Source of the DNA: Deltaproteobacteria bacterium | Lineage (GTDB): Bacteria; Myxococcota_A; UBA796; GCA-2862545 | NCBI GenBank assembly: GCA_011376105.1 | Contig: DRPG01000169.1 | Location: 1-43,494 of the forward strand | Direction of reading: 5' to 3' | DNA length: 43,494 bases | Shown: one piece after another, positions 32,696-35,600 of the stretch | Layout: each line of letters begins with the position of its first letter | Position numbering within the stretch: position 1 is the first letter of the stretch | Notes under the pieces: generated by a model | Told to the model about the DNA's origin: nothing | The model's input: only the letters and a program-made list of their open reading frames with translations | The model's database searches: none | Program-made: the position numbers and the translations under genes

Positions 32696-35600
32696 CTAGA
32701 TGTCGAGGTTTCGCACAGACAGAGCGTTCTTCTGGATGAAGTCGCGTCGGGGCTCGACGGCGTCGCCCATGAGGATGGTGAACATGGTGTCGGCGCTCAT
32801 GAGGTCCTCGAGATCGACGCGCTGCAGCGTGCGGACTTCGGGATCCATCGTGGTCTCCCAGAGTTGCTTTGGGTTCATCTCACCCAAGCCCTTGTAACGC
32901 TGCACATCGTACCCGCGCTGAGCGAGATCGAGCAGGACCTGCAGGGCGGTGCTCCAGCTGTCCGCGGTTCGCTCGGAGGCACCGGACTTCAGCTGCAGGG
33001 GCAGCGAGACGGTCTCCCCCAGCTGGCGGTGGAGCGCGGTGACCGCTTCGTGATCCCCGAGGTGATCGGTCAGGCGGATGGTGCGCTCCTCTCCGCGGAT
33101 CACGATCCCGAGCAGCAGCGCCGGGACTCCGGCCTCGACGTCCTGGCGGACGAAGGCGACCCGCAGCCAGGGTTCGACCTCGGAGAGGTGGGCCCGCAGG
33201 GCCTCGCCCCTGGCAGCGAGCTCCCCTGGATCCGATGGGAGGGTCCCTCCGGTGACGTGGTAGAAGGCTTCTGCGACCGAGGCCGGGTACCTGCGCTCCA
33301 GCCTCGCCAGCCGGCGGACGTAGCTGCGCAGCCGCTCGACAAAGCTCGCCATCTCCTCGCCCTGGAGCCAGCCCGCGTCTGGCTCCGCCAGGGGATCGGC
33401 GGGGAGGGAGCGCACCTTGACGCTGCCCCCGATCGCCTGCCCGAAGAAGAACTGCTCTTGTGCAGCTTCATCCTTGAGGTATTGCTCTCTCCGACCCCGC
33501 TTGACGCGATACAGGGGGGGCTGGGCGATGTAGAGGTGCCCGCCCTTGATCAGCTCCTGCATCTCCCGGTAGAAGAAGGTCAGCAGCAGGGTACGGATGT
33601 GGCTTCCGTCCACATCGGCGTCGGTGTTGTGGCAGCAGAGCCCCCCCACGCCAGCGACAAAGTTCTCGTCGCCCTCGACGGAGAAGTCGTAGACCTGGCC
33701 GTTGGACGCCTCGACGGTCTGGATGCTGGCGACGGGCAGCGCGACCAGGTCTGCGTCGATGGTCTCGAGCCGGCGGTTGACGCTGGGTGTCGCTCCCGCG
33801 AGCCGCTCCCGGATCCGATCCGCGGAGGGGTGATCGGACCAGACGGCCTCAAGGCGCTCTAGATCCTCTCTGGCGGAGACGGTGAGCTGCCAGTGTGGGC
33901 GGCGTGTCACACGGGGTTCACCGTGGCGCTGTCGCTCCACGCCGTCGGGCCCACGGCGGTGGATCGAGGCGAAGACGCCGAGGCTGGACAGCAGGTACGA
34001 GATCCCGCTCGCGAGGTCGTACGAAGAAGAACACAGGTTGAGGCAGCCATCCTCAGCGTCTCCGCCGCTGAGGAAGCAGCCCCGGAGGAGCGCCACCCGG
34101 AGCGGCTCGGAGACGTTGAAGGCGAGATCGGGGATGGACTTGGTGGTGCTGTCGTCTCCCTGAGACCCGAACACCTCTCGCCAGACCAGCGCCGCCACTG
34201 GGTTGGCCAGCTTCAGCTCTCCGGCGTGCTCGAGCGTCTCGCAGGCCCGGGCGGGCAGGCCGAAGATCCGGGCGAACGCCTCGCCCATCTCGTCGAGCGG
34301 GCGTGTGTTGTTCACCCCCATCGACAGCCGGATCCCTCCCTGATCCGAGCCGGATCCCTCGGCGAGGGAGGAGCCGAGGAGGCTCATCAACGTGGCGTCG
34401 ATCTCGAGGTAGCGCGCGATGCCCTTCTTCTTGTGGTGATCAGGCGCCAGCTCTAGATCTTCGCGGGTCCCCAGCCAGTCTAGATCGCTTGTGTCGAGCT
34501 CAGAGAGGAGGACGTGGTCACGCACGTGGTCGGTCGGCGCTGCATCGCGCTGGGTCTCCCGGGCCCGCTCGAGCCGGTTGGGCCCGTTCTCGACGCGATC
34601 CATGAGGGCTTCGATCGCGGGCCCGCGGACAGAGACCTGAGCAGAGGCTCCGGGGACTGCGTGCAGGTGACGGAGCAGATCGAGCCGATCGGGAGCGGTG
34701 TCGGGCAGGCGGATCATCCGGGGGGCGACGACGCGATCCGCCTCGGTGATCTCATCCCCCCGCTTCAGCTGGAGCTCGCCGTCTCCGTGGACGAAGACGC
34801 TGTGGCTGGCGGTCACGCGGACGGAGCGGCCATACGCGGTCTTGATCTCGTACAGTGGCTCGTGCACCGGGTGGCGGATGACGGCCTTGATCGGCCGGAA
34901 GCGCACGTTGTGGTCCTTGAGCCCGAAGCACAGGACATCTCCCAGGGGTTCTCCGGATCGCTTGCACACCTTCGACTCAGCGGTGGCGGGCCCTCCGAGG
35001 GCCTCGTCGATGAAGGCGCCGATCCTCACCATGCGCACGCCACGATGATCGCGGACGAAGACGTGCTCGTCCCCGTCGACGCTCATCAAGATCACGCGTC
35101 CATAGCGAAGCTTGGAGAGATCAAAGTCCTCGCGGATCCCACAGCCGAGCGCGCTGATGATGGTGCGGACCTCATTGTTGGCGAGCATCTTGTCGAAGCG
35201 GGCCTTCTCCACGTTGAGGATCTTGCCCCGCAGCGGCAGGATGGCCTGATAGCGTCGATCGCGCCCCTGCTTGGCCGAGCCCCCGGCGGAGTCACCCTCG
35301 ACCAGGTACAGCTCGCATCGTTCGGGATCGCGCTCCTGGCAGTCGGCGAGCTTGCCCGGGAGATCGCCTCCTTCGAGCGCGCCCTTGCGCCGGGCCAGCT
35401 CCCGGGCTTTGCGGGCAGCCTCCCGGGCTCTAGAGGACTCGAGCGCCTTCTGCACCACCGTCTTCGCCACCTGGGGGTTCTCGGCGAGGAAAGAGGACAG
35501 ATACTCCCCGACGATGTTCTCCACCAGACCCTTGACCTCGGAGTTGCCGAGCTTACCCTTGGTCTGACCCTCGAACTGGGGCTCGGGGACCCGCACCGAC

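Follow-up and report, generated by a model that had tools for sequence, protein, structure and literature searches.

The window, a stretch of 43,494 nucleotides from an uncultured Myxococcota bacterium, carries an interrupted gyrB gene on its minus strand (36607–32696). The open reading frame encodes 1303 residues from the ATG, or 1325 residues from an upstream GTG. On the same strand lie a recF-like open reading frame (36756–37865), identified from its translation, and a dnaN-like (37875–38990) and a dnaA-like one (39944–41407), both identified from position and length only. GyrB residues 509–994, beginning with Ser and ending with His-Asn, correspond exactly to positions 33626–35083, and removal of these 486 residues leaves a protein of 817 residues in which LRYGRVILM is joined to TDADVDG. 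The flanking parts are defined by the open reading frame and by profile matches: an N-extein of residues 1–508, reaching from the ATPase domain to LRYGRVILM (35084–36607), and a C-extein running from Thr+1 of TDADVDG to the stop codon (32696–33625). The boundaries and lengths that an earlier note had given for this insert hold to the base, and exact boundary mapping confirms its position directly before the TOPRIM motif TDADVDG. We refer to the site as M/TDADVDG, the slash marking the point of insertion.

The insert is an intein, an assignment far beyond chance. Its two splicing regions are delimited by profiles and alignment, the N-terminal one also by a structural model. The N-terminal splicing (Hint) region comprises intein residues 1–125 (34709–35083) with block A (SVDGDEHVF) and block B (TASH, residues 91–94), and the C-terminal splicing region comprises residues 440–486 (33626–33766) with blocks F and G. 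The Pfam profile Intein_splicing matches the insert alone with 63 bits (cut-off 35.8), and the NCBIfam profiles intein_Nterm (TIGR01445) and intein_Cterm (TIGR01443) reach 31.6 and 21.6 bits against cut-offs of 24.5 and 15.6. Between the splicing halves, LAGLIDADG_3 matches with 27.9 bits (cut-off 22.5). Similarity to Hint/intein domains, whose absence the earlier note had named as evidence against its reading, is thereby established. All features of a class 1 intein were found: Ser1 with block A, the TxxH of block B (T91-A-S-H94), a His-Asn end followed by Thr+1 (CCHN/T) and, in the predicted model, the Hint fold. Ser1, T91, H94 and N486 are invariant among 40 aligned relatives from the same site, and Ser1 is present in all 74 sequences of the same-site alignment, in keeping with the earlier description of intact blocks A, B and F, Ser1 and Thr+1. 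An AlphaFold2 model computed with the 40-sequence alignment has a mean pLDDT of 88.5 and a pTM of 0.88; pLDDT exceeds 90 over most of the Hint parts and is low at residues 165–185. The best PDB matches of the predicted fold are solved LAGLIDADG inteins, namely 2cw7 (E=8.6e-28), VMA inteins, PI-PfuI and PI-SceI. The intein PI-PkoII (2cw7) is the best match by sequence as well as by fold, but it is archaeal and shares no more than 19% identity when the structures are aligned.

To determine the distribution of this allele, we scanned 379 genomes of the phylum and a collection of 84,980 species. The phylum scan revealed the same allele in a single other family (f15), where four genomes carry it with 51–64% identity in segments. 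Five weaker matches were rejected as GyrB inteins because they represent another intein, hosted by an AAA+ protein resembling FtsH/Cdc48. In this protein (L014–L018, families f46 and f27) the insertion lies at WVGES/SEENLR; by the current reading the first intein residue is Leu (LPWEEEVLV), so that either the true junction is at another position or this intein has a non-canonical first residue.

The broad scan yielded 77 loci, about 70 of which are GyrBs interrupted precisely at M/TDADVDG. According to the record titles, from which phyla were assigned, they belong to ten phyla: Pseudomonadota, Myxococcota, Bdellovibrionota, Nitrospirota, Gemmatimonadota, Chloroflexota, Synergistota, Elusimicrobiota, Bacillota and Methanobacteriota. 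Carriers among the Methanobacteriota are Halobacteriales including four Halorubrum, Methanosaeta and an ANME-2c archaeon. The same-site inteins (L023–L096, L099) share host protein, insertion point, Ser1 and TxxH with the window intein and are 37–62% identical to it over the intein length; the +1 residue is Thr in nearly all of them. Exact insertion point and homology to the other members make the window intein a member of this allele. One elusimicrobial intein (L047) has Ser instead of Thr at +1 (SDADVDG). In eight of 74 same-site inteins, from several separate lineages, the penultimate His is replaced by Lys (AAKN, CVKN, CTKN, CCKN; L019, L034, L049, L051, L059, L061, L069, L090).

The site is thus real, separate from the other insertion site in the TOPRIM region of GyrB (see below), recurrent and not rare. 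Since the same insert is found at the same spot in the gyrase genes of many bacteria and archaea, this kind of intein is ordinary, and the earlier suggestion that the site may be undescribed or unusual is not supported by its occurrence. We found no paper naming the exact site in the open-access literature. A tblastn search of 50,697 phage and 72,556 plasmid records gave no full-length relative of the allele, and phages and plasmids were discarded as its carriers on this basis. Among viral contigs only two distant inteins were detected, at other sites or in other proteins.

The second site is referred to as the SAKQ site (insertion after GDSAGG). It also lies in the TOPRIM region, about 65 residues upstream of M/TDADVDG, and is uninterrupted in the window GyrB, which therefore does not carry the SAKQ allele. 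The GyrB intein of Synechocystis PCC 6803, which the earlier note had placed apart from the window intein, is presumably inserted at the SAKQ site. The distinction between the two sites was correct: both are occupied together in six GyrBs (L035, L040, L079, L090, L091, L093). One of these, L091 from Chloroflexi bacterium HGW-Chloroflexi-1 (Chloroflexota), is an open reading frame of 1987 residues with three inteins, one of them at SAKQ and one at M/TDADVDG; its SAKQ-site intein differs in starting with Cys (CFSGD) and in having Ser at +1. Each of the three insertion sites of L091 lies next to a conserved catalytic motif (ATPase N-box, TOPRIM glutamate, TOPRIM aspartates). The genome of L091 has 15 intein-profile matches in total. 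A GyrB site different from M/TDADVDG is also used on a 320-kb IMG/VR contig of putative viral origin (L100, 5001–6326), which encodes a GyrB-like protein with its intein in the ATPase N-box (EICDN/SIDEA); viral contigs yielded no further relative.

GyrB inteins have long been known, among others from Synechocystis (PMC3620165), and the window copy adds a further same-site member. An intein allele termed 'gyrB' by Soucy et al. (2014) is common to Halobacteria, Cyanobacteria, Allochromatium and others and has been exchanged between domains (PMC4071816); the text consulted gives no residue position for it, and it may correspond to M/TDADVDG, to the SAKQ site or to a mixture of the two. A GyrB intein has been reported for Desulfonema (PMC6390638), and the same paper mentions GyrB inteins of Beggiatoaceae second-hand; the text of PMC4914600, one of the two sources cited there, makes no mention of a GyrB intein.

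Among the genomes of its own family that were scanned, the window intein stands alone. The N-terminal half of GyrB was matched in 20 of 21 family genomes, that of the window included. The 17 best matches, among them the same-genus genome, have open frames of 770–974 residues and are therefore too short to hold the window intein; one of the remaining two matches is truncated, and the last genome yielded no more than a shorter homologue. At 11 of these family loci, the M/TDADVDG junction could be read directly and is uninterrupted. GyrB of the same-genus genome (845 residues, 82% identical in the N-terminal half) is intein-free, and the phylum scan detected the allele in no other member of the family. 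The closest entry to the window intein in the intein tree comes from Nitrospirota (62% identity), and the Myxococcota of family f15 are next; support near the window row is weak, and no starred set of the tree holds it. Horizontal acquisition is the simplest reading of these sequence comparisons. Repeated loss within the family persists as a formal alternative, since the case for transfer is built on the patchy distribution and a weakly supported tree. We also looked for a co-conversion tract around the site by comparing the gyrB exteins of the window and G319, which revealed no clear local anomaly. In the bin of 40 codons at the site, third-position identity is 0.47, and other bins range from 0.40 to 0.75, so that no trace of recent homing is readable.

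The homing endonuclease appears to have decayed. The LAGLIDADG region, delimited by alignment, LAGLIDADG_3 and rate counts, comprises intein residues 191–425 (33809–34513). Most same-site relatives are about 570 residues long, with an insert of about 85 residues bearing a helix–turn–helix (HTH) and with both LAGLIDADG acids in place, as in motifs such as LLGFYLAEGS and LRGYLLGDGT of intact relatives; HTH_31 and HTH_3 match relative L020 weakly. The window intein is shorter (486 residues) and lacks the HTH insert. At the position of this insert it has a linker (residues 165–185, 34529–34591), which alignment and low pLDDT indicate to be disordered. A functional endonuclease requires an acid in each LAGLIDADG motif. 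By alignment, the first motif (34352–34381) keeps its catalytic Glu242, and in the second (34058–34087) the acid is replaced by Gly (D340G). The earlier description as 'full-length' is thus accurate in that an endonuclease domain is present, but this domain is reduced and appears catalytically dead.

Rates of change point in the same direction. Using columns at least 90% conserved among 58 intact relatives, the window intein breaks only one of 45 in the splicing domain but seven of 45 in the endonuclease region, D340G included. In 20 relative-rate comparisons, which differ in reference and outgroup but share sequences and so are not independent, window-specific changes always outnumbered reference-specific ones in the endonuclease region; the difference was significant (P < 0.05) for 17 choices and not significant for three. 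In the splicing domain none of the 20 revealed a significant excess of window-specific changes. Compared with L035, using L043 as outgroup, counts were 14 versus 15 in Hint and 48 versus 17 in the endonuclease region (P = 0.00015). The two Hint parts share identities of 0.68 and 0.81 with those of L035, compared with 0.57 for the endonuclease region. Because the endonuclease region evolves faster while the splicing domain does not, splicing is probably under selection and homing is not. Across the allele, loss of the HTH and loss of the endonuclease are associated in the raw table (58/6/2/8; Fisher P = 7.6e-6). Their coupling is suggestive only, because six independent pairs remain once relatedness is accounted for (median P = 0.125, always in the same direction).

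Taken together, the element is very probably a class 1 cis-splicing intein at GyrB M/TDADVDG that was acquired horizontally and has kept splicing while its endonuclease decayed; splicing competence combined with a dead homing endonuclease is the most likely state. That the endonuclease is dead is an inference, as some nicking may survive when a single catalytic acid is lost. The intein probably arrived by horizontal homing from outside the family. Decay of the endonuclease would have followed, with loss of the HTH insert, replacement of the second catalytic acid by Gly and faster change, so that the intein is probably no longer able to spread and would persist by vertical inheritance. The splicing domain would be kept because gyrB is essential and imprecise loss lethal. 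After translation, the intein should be excised and ...VILM joined to TDADVDG... by the standard Ser1/Asn/Thr+1 route, which would make the TOPRIM metal-binding loop continuous again. Native inteins are documented to lie close to active sites (PMC3359363). Judging from GyrB biochemistry, the unspliced precursor, interrupted directly before the T-D-A-D residues, should be without gyrase activity, so that gyrase can reasonably be expected to depend on splicing. The locus would provide a clear late-stage example of the intein homing cycle at a site common to bacteria and archaea. Intact relatives of several degrees, together with empty sites in genus and family, allow a comparison of homing, decay and loss at a single locus.

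A domesticated intein that gates gyrase activity through splicing controlled by redox, metal or temperature is very unlikely. It would accord with the conserved splicing domain next to a decaying endonuclease region, with the position beside catalytic residues and with the vicinal Cys-Cys before His-Asn, which is common in relatives, and conditional splicing is documented elsewhere, for instance for mycobacterial DnaB (PMC6195587, PMC7360933). However, an essential gene would be expected to impose the same conservation on any intein trapped in it, not all relatives have the Cys pair (AVHN, CAHN, AAKN and others), and relatives of the same family live without the intein. Were splicing conditional, DNA supercoiling would be gated directly at the post-translational level.

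That the intein is still mobile, its endonuclease active in spite of the Gly in the second motif, is very unlikely. The retained Glu242 and the recognition of the domain by LAGLIDADG_3 speak for activity, but they are opposed by D340G, the six other broken conserved columns and the faster change of the region. It is scarcely credible that the insertion is splicing-dead and gyrB non-functional or split, with supercoiling supplied by another enzyme: the genome does contain an uninterrupted GyrB/ParE-like open reading frame of 663 residues (C101:1288–2769), but a shorter homologue accompanies normal GyrB in most family members, as fits ParE, all splicing residues are kept, and the C-extein is intact to its usual C-terminus. 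Equally hard to credit is an assembly chimera or contamination with a foreign gyrB, which the fragmentation of the bin into 766 contigs (completeness 80.7%, contamination 3.8%) could suggest, as the extein is closer to the same-genus genome than to any other family member, the DnaB and NrdJ exteins behave alike, and intein and exteins match in G+C (0.678 versus 0.665) and GC3 (0.85 versus 0.88).

The host genome contains seven inteins in four genes: one each in GyrB, DnaB and GcvPB and four in NrdJ. The same profile search detected none in the other 20 family genomes. The six further inteins are located on contigs C526 (L102), C170 (L103) and C742 (L104) of this genome (G000). The four NrdJ inteins interrupt a single open reading frame of 2854 residues for a B12-type ribonucleotide reductase, and the DnaB intein lies in the Walker A loop. 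Contamination is an unlikely source of the DnaB and NrdJ inteins, because the exteins are 87% and 82% identical, respectively, to those of the same-genus genome. The intein in GcvPB (glycine dehydrogenase subunit 2) precedes CIPHGGGGPGMG, and the gene is cut by the contig end; no paper mentioning an intein together with glycine dehydrogenase was found in the open-access literature. This burst of seven inteins in one species is a more unusual observation than the GyrB intein itself. An endonuclease-dead intein acting as a conditional gyrase switch in a species that recently gained seven inteins, in genes for replication, dNTP supply and one-carbon metabolism, in a family otherwise having none, would be a very improbable combination.

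Outside GyrB, a related intein of the SVDGSEYT type was observed in Baldrarchaeota and Thermoprotei metagenome-assembled genomes (L097, L098), where it interrupts the active-site loop of an apparent phosphohexomutase (TA/SHNPP).
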